The notes beneath the pieces were generated by a model that made no database searches, was not told where the DNA came from, and saw only the letters and a program-made list of their open reading frames with translations. Shown one piece after another: positions 7,744-13,472 of a DNA stretch of 21,095 nucleotides. The translations under genes were made by a program, and so were the position numbers. How positions within the stretch are numbered: position 1 is the stretch's first letter; each line of letters starts with the position of its first letter. The stretch is from a virus, in IMG/VR virus record IMGVR_UViG_3300021378_001617, positions 1-21,095 of that record; one strand, given 5' to 3'.

Positions 7744-8508
7744 TCAAATACGAATTAATTTAATTAACCAAGTTCCTAAATCAAAGTTACTCCAAATAAC
7801 TTCTCTAGGATTTTTGTGATGTCTTGTATGCAGTCCCTCACCAAATGCTACTACGTTTAGCCAGCCGTCTTCGTGGGTGTTACCGCCTCTATGTGAATAT
7901 GAGGCAATAAGTGCCATCGCAAATTTTGAAAGTCCGGCTGCTACCAAATATATTAAAGCCCATATAGGATTTATTAATGCTAATAGTGTAATAAAGCCAT
8001 AGATAATTAACAAATAATTATCTGCTTGAAACTTGTAAACTGGACTTTGTAATTCGGGTTTACAATACATCAATACTCTTTTCATAAACTGACGTTTACT
8101 ATTTCCTGCCATGAGAACAGCAGTATTAAATAAACAATTCCATATGCCAGCATATTCAGGTGAATGGGTGTCCTCTGGTTTGTCGGCGTATCTGTGATGA
8201 TTGAGATGAGCGCTTTTCCAAGCAATTGCTGAGGAGTTTAGTGCAAATCCACCTAAGAATAAAAGTATATATTCTATTGTTTTGTGGGTTTCAAACCCTC
8301 GGTGTGTTATAAGTCTATGATATCCAACTGTGGAACCTAGTTGTAATAAAACGTAAACAAAAAGAACTGCTAGCCAATTTTGCCATGTGCCTAAAAATGC
8401 TAGTGGAATAATGCACGCCAGACAGACGTAATGTAGGATATTAATTTGAAGAGCTTCAGTTTGCCTTAGTCTTTCTTTCCAATGTTGTATTTTGTTACTA
8501 ATTCCCAT
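7744..8508 (-). CDS. Membrane fatty-acid (acyl) desaturase
   Basis: A di-iron integral membrane desaturase that introduces a cis double bond into acyl chains, probably of the delta-9 type. All three histidine boxes are present: HRLITHR from His64, HLNHH at 101-105, and LHTRHH at 226-231. Hydrophobic segments surround residues 25-60, 78-95 and 165-205. At 254 residues it is close to compact bacterial and cyanobacterial enzymes. Box 2 has HLNHH where many have HRxHH; the metal-ligand histidines remain. The ATG at 8508 has GAAAGGGG upstream and overlaps the regA end by 43 bases, so its expression is tied to regA. Such a gene inside the replication cluster suggests changes to membrane lipids during infection; electron donor and substrate are not visible. 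Confidence 0.88.
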   Translation of the reverse strand: MGISNKIQHWKERLRQTEALQINILHYVCLACIIPLAFLGTWQNWLAVLFVYVLLQLGSTVGYHRLITHRGFETHKTIEYILLFLGGFALNSSAIAWKSAHLNHHRYADKPEDTHSPEYAGIWNCLFNTAVLMAGNSKRQFMKRVLMYCKPELQSPVYKFQADNYLLIIYGFITLLALINPIWALIYLVAAGLSKFAMALIASYSHRGGNTHEDGWLNVVAFGEGLHTRHHKNPREVIWSNFDLGTWLIKLIRI

Positions 8509-8906: not shown

Positions 8907-8911
8907 TTATA
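8904..8911 (-). promoter_or_regulatory. T4-type late promoter octamer before regA
   Basis: Exact TATAAATA on the minus strand, overlapping the stop codon of the upstream gene (8907-8909) and the outer edge of the regA hairpin. Its expected start site would fall in or next to the hairpin loop, so a transcript from here would lack the complete hairpin. Confidence 0.45.
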
Positions 8912-9452
8912 AGTTTCTTACTTTCTTTATCTGGAAATCCTCCTCGTCTATTCCTATTGCTTCATAAAAACCATTATTCCACTTTTTCCAAATGACTCCT
9001 CGGTTTTCCATTATCAGTTTTTCAGACACATATTCAATTGAATCAATTGAAGTATCAACCATTGTTTCTTGTGTCCATACCGTATACCCAGCATCCATTA
9101 AATTTACTATCCCTAAGTCTGCATAATGTAAGCACATTTGCCACGCTGCCCCAATAACTAATATGTTTGTATTGCCCTCAATTTTTTTAGGAATAAGTTT
9201 AATGTGTTCTTCTAATCCCTCGAGAGTTGTTACAGCTTTAATAGGTGGGACTATGCCTTTAAGTAAGTCATCTACTAAATGTAAATCACAACTAACTAAT
9301 ATGTTTGGAGATTTTTGAACAACGGATTCAATCTGACTAGCTATTCTTCGATAAAGCCATGGTGGTTTTTCTGAAAATTTTTCTTTTAAATACCAATCCT
9401 TTCCCCAAGGGTCAATAATGAGAATAACATCAAACTCTACTAGTGGATTCAC
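8907..9452 (-). CDS. Unknown protein, possibly isochorismatase-fold hydrolase
   Basis: A 181-residue protein between gp62 and regA. An N-terminal strand ending in an aspartate (VILIIDPWGKDW) and a later segment ILVIGAAWQMCLHYADLGIVNLMDAGY resemble the Asp and Cys regions of isochorismatase-like cysteine hydrolases. In that family an Asp-Lys-Cys triad is set on an alpha/beta fold, with the Cys followed by a helix and GYxV. The match is loose and the catalytic Lys is not clear, so the function stays open. The start is GTG at 9452, overlapping the gp62 stop by 4 bases (GTGA) with GGCGGAAA upstream, indicating translational coupling. The stop codon overlaps the late-promoter octamer before regA. 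Confidence 0.6.
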   Translation of the reverse strand: MNPLVEFDVILIIDPWGKDWYLKEKFSEKPPWLYRRIASQIESVVQKSPNILVSCDLHLVDDLLKGIVPPIKAVTTLEGLEEHIKLIPKKIEGNTNILVIGAAWQMCLHYADLGIVNLMDAGYTVWTQETMVDTSIDSIEYVSEKLIMENRGVIWKKWNNGFYEAIGIDEEDFQIKKVRNL

Positions 9453-9901
9453 TTTCCGCCTTTGTTAAGTCTTTTTTCTATACCTGCAAATTCTTCATCT
9501 GTAAGCAGTCTGAGAGCCTCGGCTGCTTTAGTATTGTTATAGCCATAATATTCTTTTAAGATTGCTAACTTTTCTTCTCTTTCGGGCTTTAGCCATTTGT
9601 TATATCTTTTTCTTTTAGATACTATACCGAGTAAAAAGTCATATTGCATCTTTTTATCTAAATGCGGACGTGAATTTACTTCGTTACCTGCAATTACTGT
9701 ATCAGGCCCATAACTTAGTGCTTTGTTTACTATGTAAGGGTTGTATTGTTTTTCTGACCACTCATCAACAATTAAATTTTCTTTAGTAAAGTTAATGCTA
9801 TTGGCAAAGTCAAAAGGACTTATTGCTTTTTTCTTTTCTACAAATTCTGACGGGTCTACGCCAATAACAGCGTCACCAAAGCCATCTAGAATACCTGTCA
9901 T
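9449..9901 (-). CDS. 62: Clamp-loader small subunit, T4 gp62-like
   Basis: gp62 joins four gp44 subunits to form the ATP-driven clamp loader that places gp45 on DNA. The family signature is seen in SPFDFANSINFTKENL, EKQYNPYIVNKALSYGPDTV and KKMQYDFLLGIVSKRKRYNKW (all as separate segments), which match T4-like gp62 proteins. The 150 residues are shorter than in T4 (187). Its ATG at 9901 overlaps by 4 bases the stop of the outer-membrane-like gene, with no clear ribosome site, so gp62 synthesis should depend on translation of that gene. In T4, gp62 is instead coupled directly to gp44, so the inserted gene takes over that link. Confidence 0.88.
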   Translation of the reverse strand: MTGILDGFGDAVIGVDPSEFVEKKKAISPFDFANSINFTKENLIVDEWSEKQYNPYIVNKALSYGPDTVIAGNEVNSRPHLDKKMQYDFLLGIVSKRKRYNKWLKPEREEKLAILKEYYGYNNTKAAEALRLLTDEEFAGIEKRLNKGGK

Positions 9902-10539
9902 AGTGCAAAGTTAAAGCTAATAGTCGTTACGTTATCACTAATAGGGTCTTCAGTATAAACATTACCTAAGGATAACTTTAATTGTTTTGTTAGTTGAAAG
10001 TTAAAGTATGTTTCATTCCTAACATAATCAGTATCGCCTGTTTCTATCAAATACTTATTTGTAAAACTTAACTGGTCAGCAAGTTTATAGAAAAACCATA
10101 AGCTGTTTCTCCAAATAAGTTCATCGCCTAAATCTGTATTCAAGTTTAGAAATGTAATTTCATTTGATGCTTTAAATTTTTCTGTTCTCAAAATTTTGTA
10201 ACCATATCCTGCACCATATGTTGTTCTTGTATCCAATGTTCTGTATTCATCAAAGTTATAACCAACATTACCAATTACATAATGTTTATCTGTAAGTGTA
10301 AGAATACGTTTTACATTGAGAAGACCTTCGTTTCTCATTTCAACATTATTTTTTTCTGAATAAAAATAATTTCCTTCTACTTCTGTCTGCCATCTGCCTA
10401 CTTCTTCTTTGAAGTCCAATGTTAAGTTAAAATTAGAACTTCCGCCTTTAAGGAAAGTTCCGCCTATACCTACACTATTTGCTAATGCCATATTAGGCAC
10501 CAACATTATAAAAATTAAAATTTTACTTAAATTCAACAT
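9898..10539 (-). CDS. Outer membrane beta-barrel protein, DUF481-like, with signal peptide
   Basis: Residues 1-20 form a clear Sec signal peptide: LSK, a hydrophobic core ILIFIMLVP, and an ALA cleavage site before NSVGIGG. The mature part, about 193 residues, alternates hydrophobic and polar residues in repeated strands with aromatic girdles (YFYSEKNN, YVIGNVGYNF, YGAGYGYKIL, NSLWFFYKLA, ETYFNFQL), ending in ISFNFAL. The pattern resembles the DUF481/YdiY family of putative outer-membrane barrels. It overlaps the gp44 end by 17 bases (SD GGAG) and its stop overlaps the gp62 start, so it is locked into the clamp-loader operon. It could modify the host surface, for example in superinfection exclusion, but that is inference. 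Base composition matches its neighbours. Confidence 0.8.
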   Translation of the reverse strand: MLNLSKILIFIMLVPNMALANSVGIGGTFLKGGSSNFNLTLDFKEEVGRWQTEVEGNYFYSEKNNVEMRNEGLLNVKRILTLTDKHYVIGNVGYNFDEYRTLDTRTTYGAGYGYKILRTEKFKASNEITFLNLNTDLGDELIWRNSLWFFYKLADQLSFTNKYLIETGDTDYVRNETYFNFQLTKQLKLSLGNVYTEDPISDNVTTISFNFAL

Positions 10540-11458
10540 TTGCCATAATCTCCGTTAAACAAGCAGTTAAGTTTATTTCTTGGTCGGCAACAAAACTACT
10601 CTTATATTGATAGTCCGCAATAATTAAAACTAACTGCGGAACCTGTTTTACTTTTTCCATTAAAGTATCATATACTTTTCTATAAATTTGTTGAGGGTCT
10701 GACTCTACATTATTCGCAACCCATTGTCGCATTTTCTTAAAGTCTTTATCCTTAATTGAATCTACTAAAGCCTTTGTATTTATTTCAGATAGGTTACTTA
10801 ATATACCCTCATCAATAACACCTGAGGAGCCATATCTTTGTAATTCATTAATTACTCTCCTATAATCAGGAAAGTGTTTCATTAGAAGTTCTGCTAGGAC
10901 TTTCTCAGAATATGTAACTTTGTTATCATCTAAAATATGACACATTCTTTTTAAGAACTTAGATGCCATCTTAGCTTTTTGCCCATTAACTAATTTAAAG
11001 TCAATTACAGTTGTTCTACTGTGCAGAGGTTGTATAATTCTATTTTTAAAATTACAAGTAAATATAAACCTACAGTTTTTACTAAATTCCTCAATAAATG
11101 CCCTAAGTGCAGGTTGTGTAGAATTAGGATTTAAGTAATCTGCCTCATCTAATATTACAACTTTAGGTTTACCTTCAAAACTTACAGTAGATGCAAAGTT
11201 TTTAATCTTAGTCCTTAGCACATCGATACCGGACTCTTCGGAACCATTAATTATAATACTATCACAGCCTAATTCATTACAAAGAGCGCGTGCTATGGTT
11301 GTCTTGCCTGTGCCAGCTGTGCCACATAATAACATATTTGGAATTTCTCCTGCCTTAACAAAGTCTCTAAAAACTTTAAGTTTTTCATCTGGCAAAATAC
11401 ATTCATCTAAAGTCTTGGGCCTATATCTTTCGACCCATAAAAATTCTTGATTGTCCAT
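10523..11458 (-). CDS. 44: Clamp-loader ATPase subunit, T4 gp44-like
   Basis: An AAA+ ATPase of the RFC/gp44 class that opens and loads the sliding clamp. The N-terminal box is WVERYRPKTLDEC (residues 8-20). Walker A is GTAGTGKT at 46-53, Walker B is VVILDEAD at 100-107, sensor 1 is in FTCNFKNR at 133-140, and the arginine-finger SRC motif appears as HSRT at 146-149. The length of 311 residues matches T4 (319). ATG at 11458 has AAGGAAA upstream. That ribosome site forms one arm of an inverted repeat, so translation may be controlled. The gene is followed by the outer-membrane-like gene instead of gp62, and preceded by peroxiredoxin instead of gp45. Confidence 0.95.
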   Translation of the reverse strand: MDNQEFLWVERYRPKTLDECILPDEKLKVFRDFVKAGEIPNMLLCGTAGTGKTTIARALCNELGCDSIIINGSEESGIDVLRTKIKNFASTVSFEGKPKVVILDEADYLNPNSTQPALRAFIEEFSKNCRFIFTCNFKNRIIQPLHSRTTVIDFKLVNGQKAKMASKFLKRMCHILDDNKVTYSEKVLAELLMKHFPDYRRVINELQRYGSSGVIDEGILSNLSEINTKALVDSIKDKDFKKMRQWVANNVESDPQQIYRKVYDTLMEKVKQVPQLVLIIADYQYKSSFVADQEINLTACLTEIMANVEFK

Positions 11459-11530: not shown

Positions 11531-12115
11531 CTACTTTTTGGGCCCAAGTTTTTCCTCAACACCTGCACCATCCTGCAGACTTATTTCTATGTTTCTACCC
11601 CAGCCATTTTCCTTTAACCACTTTAGCACATGGTCAGGACTTGATACATTGTAGGGGTCTTCACTTGCATTATCCTTTAGTCCTTCCTCAACAAACATCT
11701 CATGTATGTTCATGTCGTTCACTAACATAGCATATCTCCATGACCTTACACCGAAACCGAGGTTATCTTTTTTGACATCCATACCCATGTAAGTTGTCCA
11801 TATTGCTGAGCCATCAGGTAACACTTTTACGTTCTTTAACTTTTGGTCTTCCGCCCAAGCATTCATTACAAAGGCATCATTAACAGATAAACAATAAATT
11901 TCATCTACGCCTAACTTATAAAATTCCTCTGCCAAAGACTCATAGCCTGGTAACTGCTGATTAGAACAAGTGGGTGTAAATGCACCTGGTAGTGCGAAAA
12001 CCAAAACTTTTTTATTTTGAAAAAGGTTTTGTGTAAGTGTTTCCTTCCACTCACCTAGCTCCCTCAACTTAAAAACAACCTGAGGGATAAATTGAATTTT
12101 AGTTCCTTCTGCCAT
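11531..12115 (-). CDS. Peroxiredoxin, Prx5-like (AhpC/TSA superfamily)
   Basis: Reduces hydrogen peroxide and organic hydroperoxides through a peroxidatic cysteine. The active site PGAFTPTCS places Cys50 with Thr47 and Pro43, and the later GVRSWRYAML holds the conserved Arg that stabilises the thiolate. PYNVSSPDHVLKWL near the end matches the usual Prx5 C-terminal pattern. The other cysteines do not sit in a classical resolving position, so it may use glutaredoxin or thioredoxin as an external reductant. I choose ATG at 12115 rather than the upstream TTG at 12127, because the latter lies within the gp45 end; ATG sits just after the gp45 stop and has GGTGG upstream. The 194 residues fit the family. 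Its position between gp45 and gp44 is unusual. Confidence 0.88.
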   Translation of the reverse strand: MAEGTKIQFIPQVVFKLRELGEWKETLTQNLFQNKKVLVFALPGAFTPTCSNQQLPGYESLAEEFYKLGVDEIYCLSVNDAFVMNAWAEDQKLKNVKVLPDGSAIWTTYMGMDVKKDNLGFGVRSWRYAMLVNDMNIHEMFVEEGLKDNASEDPYNVSSPDHVLKWLKENGWGRNIEISLQDGAGVEEKLGPKK

Positions 12116-12116
12116 A

Positions 12117-12779
12117 TTAACCACCAATAACTGAATTGGGCTCTAATGCTAACCAATAGTTAGTATCTTTAGTTGTGCTAGACAAGTGCATAAATTTCTT
12201 TTCTGAAATTGTAACATTATAGTTACCAGGAACAACTTTAAAGTTTTCCACTGCTAGTCTTGCATCAAAAGTTTTATCAGTATCGCCTATCACTTGTCTA
12301 AAAGCATTACTTCTAGGAGTGCTAGGGTCACCGACTGTAAGAACCGCTTTTCCATCTTTGCCAACAACACTTAGCATAGGTGCGCTAACTACGGCAGCTG
12401 CCTTCATTATCATATCTACTTCTTCCTTAGATAAAACAAAGTCGAAGAATGAATCTACTTCAATTGTTTTGTCAGGTGCAGATACAATTATACTCGGGTC
12501 AGCATAAAAGTATTCAAACTGCGATGAACCTTTAGACATAGTAATCGACTCGTCGCCTAGTTCTACATCTGTATCTTCCATCAAAGTTAAAAGTGCGAGT
12601 AAACTGTTTAAATCATAAACAGCAAACTCTTTGTCAAAAGTTTCTGATACCTGAGCCCTTGCAAAAATATTTTTACCTGTGCTAATAGTAGAAAGCATGT
12701 TGCCTTCTCTAATTAAAATGTTAGTATTAATAGTTGCGAAGTTCTTGAGGACATCAAGAGTTTCTTTAGATATTTTCAT
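12117..12779 (-). CDS. 45: Sliding clamp, T4 gp45-like
   Basis: The trimeric ring that tethers DNA polymerase to DNA and, in T4, activates late transcription. The 220-residue protein (T4: 228) has the gp45-like N-terminus ISKETLDVLKNFATINTNIL, followed by GNMLSTIS and FARAQVSETFDKEFAVYDLNSLL. The two PCNA-like halves are expected at about 1-110 and 110-220. It heads the core replication cluster and overlaps nothing upstream. The mRNA has its own perfect sigma-70 promoter at 12809-12837, then GGAGA and an ATATATT spacer before the ATG. A clamp under an early promoter together with TATAAATA late sites elsewhere fits T4-type late transcription, which needs gp45. Confidence 0.9.
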   Translation of the reverse strand: MKISKETLDVLKNFATINTNILIREGNMLSTISTGKNIFARAQVSETFDKEFAVYDLNSLLALLTLMEDTDVELGDESITMSKGSSQFEYFYADPSIIVSAPDKTIEVDSFFDFVLSKEEVDMIMKAAAVVSAPMLSVVGKDGKAVLTVGDPSTPRSNAFRQVIGDTDKTFDARLAVENFKVVPGNYNVTISEKKFMHLSSTTKDTNYWLALEPNSVIGG

Positions 12780-12808: not shown

Positions 12809-12837
12809 ATTATAAAGGATTGGTATGCCTAAGTCAA
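12809..12837 (-). promoter_or_regulatory. Sigma-70 promoter for gp45
   Basis: The minus strand carries TTGACT (12832-12837), a 17 bp spacer and TATAAT (12809-12814) in the only gap between the unknown 212-residue gene and gp45. It leaves a leader of about 25 bases containing GGAGA. Confidence 0.8.
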
Positions 12838-13472
12838 CCACTTAGATGACCAATTTTTTCAACCAGCGTCTGCTCATATGTTTCATTCCACAAATGATAT
12901 AGACACCATTGTTTAGTGTGTTTAATAATGCAAGGGCCAAATCTTGTAAAAGGAGTTATCCTAATACCCGGCTCTCTAAAATGTTTTTTATGCCATACAC
13001 CGTCATTTTTATTTTCTGCTATAAAGGCATAGTTTGAATGTCTATCAGCTCTATTGAAACGTTCGTTTCGTTCCATTAGAAATAAATTATATTCATTAAA
13101 TGTTTCTATAAATCCATGGAAGCCATCTTCTTCTGCTTTGTCCAACAAATAATAAAAAAGATTATGTCCGCTATCTTTTGAAAGAGCTTTTGTTGTTTGC
13201 TTGTTATAAAATCTACTAACAATGCAAACGTTCTCATCAAAGTCTGCTGGATAATATCCTACACCTGAATGTAAATCTTCAGATACAATATACAATCCGT
13301 TTCCATCAAATCTTTTTTCTATAAAAATTGTATAGAGCAAAGTATGAGATTTGTTTTCCCAATCTTCAACATCTATATTATCGTTTGTTAAGTTGTTAGC
13401 TGTCTGTTGTATTAGACAAAATTGTTTAACTAACTCTATGTCTGAATTTGAATTAATTCTGTTGTATGTCAT
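12834..13472 (-). CDS. Unknown 212-residue protein, possible GNAT-like fold
   Basis: I do not recognise this protein. It is soluble and rich in aromatic residues, without a signal peptide or membrane segment. A central stretch with YIVSEDLHSGVGYYPADFD, a strand VCIVSRFY, a helix HNLFYYLLDKAEEDGFHGF and later LFLMERNERFNRA is reminiscent of an acyltransferase core, including a long helix followed by a residue-rich loop. The acetyl-CoA binding motif is not convincing, so this is a loose idea. The start ATG at 13472 overlaps the glycosyltransferase end by 20 bases. A perfect sigma-70 promoter sits inside that upstream gene, only 8 bases before the ATG, so it can be expressed alone. Its stop lies within the gp45 promoter region. 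Confidence 0.65.
   Translation of the reverse strand: MTYNRINSNSDIELVKQFCLIQQTANNLTNDNIDVEDWENKSHTLLYTIFIEKRFDGNGLYIVSEDLHSGVGYYPADFDENVCIVSRFYNKQTTKALSKDSGHNLFYYLLDKAEEDGFHGFIETFNEYNLFLMERNERFNRADRHSNYAFIAENKNDGVWHKKHFREPGIRITPFTRFGPCIIKHTKQWCLYHLWNETYEQTLVEKIGHLSG

Follow-up and report, generated by a model that had tools for sequence, protein, structure and literature searches.

The junction between gp44 and gp62, the genes of the two T4-type clamp-loader subunits, is a variable cargo slot in marine T4-like phages, and it is this site, rather than the outer-membrane barrel gene found there in the phage studied here, that forms the special feature of the region. We analyzed the 21,095-nucleotide stretch of IMG/VR virus record IMGVR_UViG_3300021378_001617 (hereafter, the window) and consider it reasonably probable that its barrel gene encodes a phage-borne selective channel of the DUF481 type, carried as cargo in a variable slot where the coupling of gp62 is preserved. 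The clamp-loader subunits are an essential, stoichiometry-sensitive pair that is directly coupled in T4, whereas marine T4-like phages gain and lose cargo at this junction without giving up the coupling overlap. This raises the testable question of how phages accept genes inside an essential coupled pair, and whether the cargo then controls replication; the analysis further brings to light a family of outer-membrane barrels encoded by viruses.

Barrel gene and its genomic context

The preliminary description of the window had reported an open reading frame between gp44 and gp62 that overlaps both genes, and its coordinates proved exact, with overlaps of 17 nt and 4 nt, respectively (Table 1). 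The flanking genes match PHROG 168 (gp44) and PF16790/PHROG 225 (gp62), and thus both are T4 clamp-loader subunits. The DUF481 membership suggested for the encoded protein is borne out by a PF04338 match of 79.9 bits (E 3.5e-22) against a gathering score of 21.1. The order gp44-barrel-gp62, for which synteny in related genomes had been proposed as a check, was recovered with identical junctions in contigs from five other metagenomes. An assembly artefact or a chance ORF is ruled out by the family match and these independent contigs.

Table 1. Features of the clamp-loader region in the window
Feature	Position	Strand	Evidence
181-aa gene, no known family, directly after gp62	8907..9452	(-)	family searches, comparison with relatives
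gp62, clamp-loader small subunit	9449..9901	(-)	PF16790, phrog_225
ATGA, barrel gene stop / gp62 start, 4-nt overlap	9898..9901	(-)	sequence
DUF481 outer-membrane beta-barrel gene (predicted), 213 aa	9898..10539	(-)	ORF, PF04338 79.9 bits, 12-strand model, fold matches
Putative signal peptide coding part, residues 1-20, MLNLSKILIFIMLVPNMALA	10480..10539	(-)	sequence, helix 2-13 in model, AxA-type site
17-nt overlap, barrel gene start / gp44 3' end	10523..10539	(-)	ORF coordinates, sequence
gp44, clamp-loader large subunit (AAA+)	10523..11458	(-)	phrog_168 415 bits, Gp44_lid
GGAG, candidate ribosome-binding site of barrel gene, inside gp44, 10 nt before ATG	10550..10553	(-)	sequence
Peroxiredoxin-like gene between gp45 and gp44	11531..12127	(-)	PF08534
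gp45, sliding clamp	12117..12779	(-)	phrog_223
Promoter-like site before gp45, TTGACT-17-TATAAT	12809..12837	(-)	11/12 matches

The promoter-like site upstream of gp45 is a candidate promoter of a gp45-gp44-barrel-gp62 operon, to be read against a number of such sites in the region that equals chance, and the barrel gene would be transcribed together with the replication genes. The location of the peroxiredoxin-like gene between gp45 and gp44 is common to many relatives of the window phage group. The 181-aa gene is absent from the L175 and L176 phages, in which the flanking gp62 and regA are conserved; judged from this gene order, its position is a second variable spot. A fatty-acid-desaturase-like gene at 7744-8508, recognized by eye from its histidine boxes, is flanked by regA and an hsp20-like gene.

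Variable slot between gp44 and gp62

Using both clamp-loader proteins as queries, we collected 160 loci, across which the gp44-to-gp62 distance ranges from an overlap up to about 3.6 kb. On a gp44 tree of 93 lineages, inserts are present in 59 and absent in 34, and parsimony gives at least 16 gains or losses, 11 of which are unavoidable given the well-supported branches. Among the cargo clusters are TauD dioxygenase (18), a 95-aa membrane protein (13), glutaredoxin (9), radical SAM (6), and MazG/PRA-PH-like (4) genes; GMP reductase/IMPDH, exoribonuclease, methyltransferase, tryptophan halogenase, and nucleotidyltransferase genes were also found in the slot. Even the six-member gp44 clade of the window is mixed, comprising the barrel gene, a radical SAM gene with a nucleotidyltransferase gene, TauD (twice), and two empty sites. 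Among cultured Pelagibacter (SAR11) phages, Mosig EXVC030M and HTVC008M possess 2OG-Fe(II) oxygenase genes in the slot. We found no paper describing the slot in the open-access literature.

The 95-aa membrane protein (L144:6924-7211 and 12 relatives) has no Pfam family and fills the slot in 13 loci, mostly with an ATGA onto gp62.

The barrel gene had been described as locked between the clamp-loader genes. Its overlaps with both flanks stand, but a special tie to the clamp loader does not, as the same place is taken by about 25 other cargo families or by nothing. Likewise, the premise of a fixed gp44-gp62 pair holds for T4 and fails for the window's group, in which the junction is variable across the 93 lineages. 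We also rejected the idea that the barrel belongs permanently to the clamp-loader operon, because it occupies the slot only in the window lineage and two close relatives, while its viral relatives L177-L205 are located elsewhere. The barrel gene would be best regarded as cargo in the variable gp44-gp62 slot of marine T4-like phages.

Exchange of barrel alleles

Comparison of the window with L175 gave DNA identities of 99.4% for gp44 and 98.5% for gp62 and only 66.5% for the barrel gene, whereas the respective values between L175 and L176 are 91.7%, 80.9%, and 98.4%; identity shifts near both ends of the barrel gene. High identity of the flanks with a divergent barrel gene, together with the converse pattern, indicates that phages have traded the barrel as a cassette. 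When 27 window genes were compared with a 43-kb sister contig, identity fell below 90% only for the barrel (57%) and the gene at 12834-13472 (64%), and the 181-aa gene was absent. These comparisons show that phages swap the cargo, or the allele of a cargo, by recombination and retain the gp62 overlap. The gene at 12834-13472 is 64% identical to its counterpart in sister contig G001 and 84% in the more distant G007, with neighbours above 90%, and it has likely been exchanged as well.

Translational coupling of gp62 to the upstream gene

As a trend rather than a set of independent events, since the nearest-ATG rule decided many of the gp62 starts and the lineages share ancestry, the gp62 start lies at or inside the end of the preceding gene in 54 of 61 lineages (28 as ATGA), namely in 35/38 with cargo and 19/23 without cargo; of the cargo families directly before gp62, 22 out of 25 overlap its start. 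Elsewhere, such an overlap was observed for 12/85 starts of gp44, 16/76 of gp45, and 41/83 of regA. A Shine-Dalgarno match of -4 kcal/mol or better precedes 41% of gp62 starts, compared to 81% for gp44 and 88% for gp45. No such match was found before gp62 in the window lineage, and the score is 0 in sister contig L093, whose gp62 junction is nearly equal to that of the window. RNA structure at the gp62 start has no excess stability (z 0.74).

Translational coupling of the clamp-loader genes is established in T4 (Torgov 1998, cited in PMC2988022). Given this precedent, the overlap pattern, and the weak Shine-Dalgarno matches, gp62 translation likely depends on the upstream cargo, here the barrel gene, and ribosomes finishing the barrel gene would probably restart at the ATGA to translate gp62. 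The gp62 start overlaps the barrel gene stop and not gp44, that is, the direct gp44-gp62 coupling of the T4 type is not found in the window. The same junction occurs with other cargo or none, so the coupling belongs to gp62 and its site and appears to be kept by whatever gene sits upstream. The earlier claim that gp62 translation depends on the barrel gene is hence retained as probable, in view of the ATGA overlap and of the window lineage having no Shine-Dalgarno match, and dropped as barrel-specific. It is possible that the barrel sets the clamp-loader ratio. More tentatively, and with the balance of probability against it, the gp44-gp62 junction could be a translational relay slot, in which any incoming gene would become the leader for gp62 synthesis, host-modifying cargo would be hard-wired to replication, and only overlap-restoring cargo would be kept.

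The overlap has left a mark on the protein. A C-terminal aromatic residue is typical of outer-membrane barrels, though it is no defining rule of DUF481. The slot alleles of the barrel lack it and end in Leu (CTA TGA), whereas a terminal Trp or Phe is found in 25 out of 25 viral relatives located outside the slot. With A as the obligatory third base of the last sense codon in an ATGA overlap, Phe, Tyr, and Trp are not available. In the phylogeny, the slot alleles group in one clade, and the Leu ending is therefore a single event. It is consistent with the overlap being favoured over the usual barrel C-terminus, and Leu in place of the aromatic end might weaken barrel assembly. These observations, with the ATGA kept in both alleles at the cost of the aromatic C-terminus, could be taken to mean that the barrel gene is mainly a translational spacer tuning the gp44:gp62 ratio, its membrane role being incidental, for which the coupling in T4 offers a precedent (PMC2988022). 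We find this very improbable, because the same coupling in other phages without an insert or with unrelated cargo implies that no barrel is needed, and because the lumen residues of the barrel are under constraint, as described in the following section.

Predicted structure, export, and conservation of the barrel

By sequence inspection, residues 1-20 of the barrel protein resemble a Sec signal peptide with an ALA|N site, and an AxA-type site precedes the barrel at the matching place in nearly all of 27 aligned viral relatives. The signal peptide proposed earlier is thus corroborated by the N-terminal Lys, the hydrophobic stretch, the cleavage site at residue 20, and its counterparts in relatives. 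The AlphaFold model (28-row alignment, mean pLDDT 77, pTM 0.70, with pLDDT of about 50-63 over the first 40 residues) places a helix at residues 2-13 and 12 strands between residues 21 and 212. Its best matches among solved folds, outer-membrane channels and an enzyme, are Tsx (Z 17.6), NanC (16.7), KdgM (16.4), PcoB (16.0), and OMPLA (15.7), the NanC and KdgM matches spanning 163-175 residues; both the model and these outer-membrane barrel matches agree with the barrel postulated from the sequence. On fold comparison, we did not retain an OMPLA-like enzyme as a candidate: OMPLA is similar at Z 15.7, but channels reach equally high scores. Outer-membrane barrel folds resemble one another, so the fold does not imply a channel function. 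The product would be exported via its signal peptide to the host outer membrane, where it is predicted to fold as a narrow 12-strand barrel.

We allotted residues to the inward or outward face from strand parity and mean hydropathy rather than from coordinates. Under this assignment, charged residues occupy 24/75 inward and 6/78 outward positions, and the divergence between alleles A and B affects 19% of the inward, 51% of the outward (lipid-facing), and 54% of the loop residues (Fisher p = 7e-5 and 4e-4, the former for inward vs outward). A lumen function is indicated because the predicted inward residues changed least between the alleles. The pattern of a constrained lumen and a drifting surface favours a channel, or another role of the lumen, over a loop-based receptor mask, and the charged, conserved lumen would most likely serve as a selective channel during infection.

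The receptor mask belongs to a different reading, in which the barrel serves superinfection exclusion or alters receptors, its early insertion masking or replacing host receptors against competing phages. The exchange of barrel alleles between related phages would fit a surface arms race, barrel relatives in one setting are found near a nucleotide-sugar epimerase gene, and phages of streamlined marine bacteria are suspected of carrying surface-altering genes, such as the S-layer type protein of Melnitz (PMC9004378). However, the short predicted inter-strand loops (about 3-9 residues) do not exceed the lipid-facing residues in divergence, with the lumen as the conserved part, and we regard this role as unlikely.

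Viral and cellular relatives

Viral DUF481 relatives from uncultivated phages are spread over at least five different genomic settings, and the setting follows phylogeny. Some neighbour a gp43-like polymerase and sugar-nucleotide genes; others, in T4-type late regions, immediately follow a small phrog_10198 membrane protein. Lysozyme and spanin genes, or ribonucleotide-reductase-like genes, lie close to still others, and others again are part of a radical-SAM cluster; no single partner gene accounts for them. The phrog_10198 protein of the late-region loci (L184-L203, e.g., L192:5582-5956) has a holin-like look, and its relatives are present in hundreds of Vibrio phages.

Some of these settings would suit a barrel that weakens the outer membrane at a late stage of infection and so aids lysis: the L187 relative lies near a phage lysozyme, an Rz-like spanin, and the phrog_10198 protein, L190 has the same gene clusters, and phrog_10198 directly precedes DUF481 in late-region loci. 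The window barrel gene, however, lies inside a replication operon, for which early expression is expected, phrog_10198 is a family without assigned function, and the slot-bearing contigs, which are partial, gave no phrog_10198 match; a lytic role is accordingly judged quite improbable, and the selective channel remains the preferred reading.

A scan of genome contigs for barrel relatives yielded a single one, in a MAG contig called Rhodobacteraceae (L205, NZVE01000006.1), where the DUF481 gene is part of a radical-SAM cluster. This contig shares phage neighbours with viral contig L204 and may itself be viral, since the same radical-SAM cluster is found there. A DUF481 scan of 289 genomes of one bacterial class gave 294 bits in one phage-like contig and at most 57 bits in the others; by these scores, the viral members are a set far from the cellular ones. 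At E up to 1, tblastn detected no match to the barrel among 50,697 phage records, nothing useful came from NCBIfam or PHROGs, and a single-sequence phmmer search found nothing among solved structures, including the NanC/KdgM type.

Comparison with known systems

DUF481 corresponds to TCDB 1.B.75, a putative 12-strand beta-barrel outer-membrane pore family (PMC4827864). The window barrel agrees with this family in its HMM match, 12 predicted strands, and signal peptide and differs in being shorter (213 aa vs 277 +/- 41) and phage-borne. The best viral structural match is the DUF481 protein A0A6J5SX85 of an uncultured Caudovirales phage (TM 0.76 by query, 16% identity), and phage DUF481 genes are therefore already deposited. 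A search of the open-access literature found no paper on DUF481 as a phage protein. BFVD also gives the outer-membrane protein of Aeromonas phage phiAS5 as a viral precedent. NanC, KdgM, and Tsx are outer-membrane channels whose monomeric barrels, with about 12 strands, resemble that of the window (Z 16-18) at 5-14% identity.

The T4 44/62 pair resembles the window in gene order and in start-stop coupling at gp62. In T4, the coupling partner is gp44 itself (PMC2988022), whereas in the window and many marine relatives a cargo gene takes this place. Cargo at this junction is shared with the two SAR11 phages, both of which have a 2OG-Fe(II) oxygenase gene instead of the barrel between gp44 and gp62: in HTVC008M this cargo overlaps gp62 by 4 nt, like the barrel gene of the window, whereas in Mosig EXVC030M a 4-nt gap precedes gp62.
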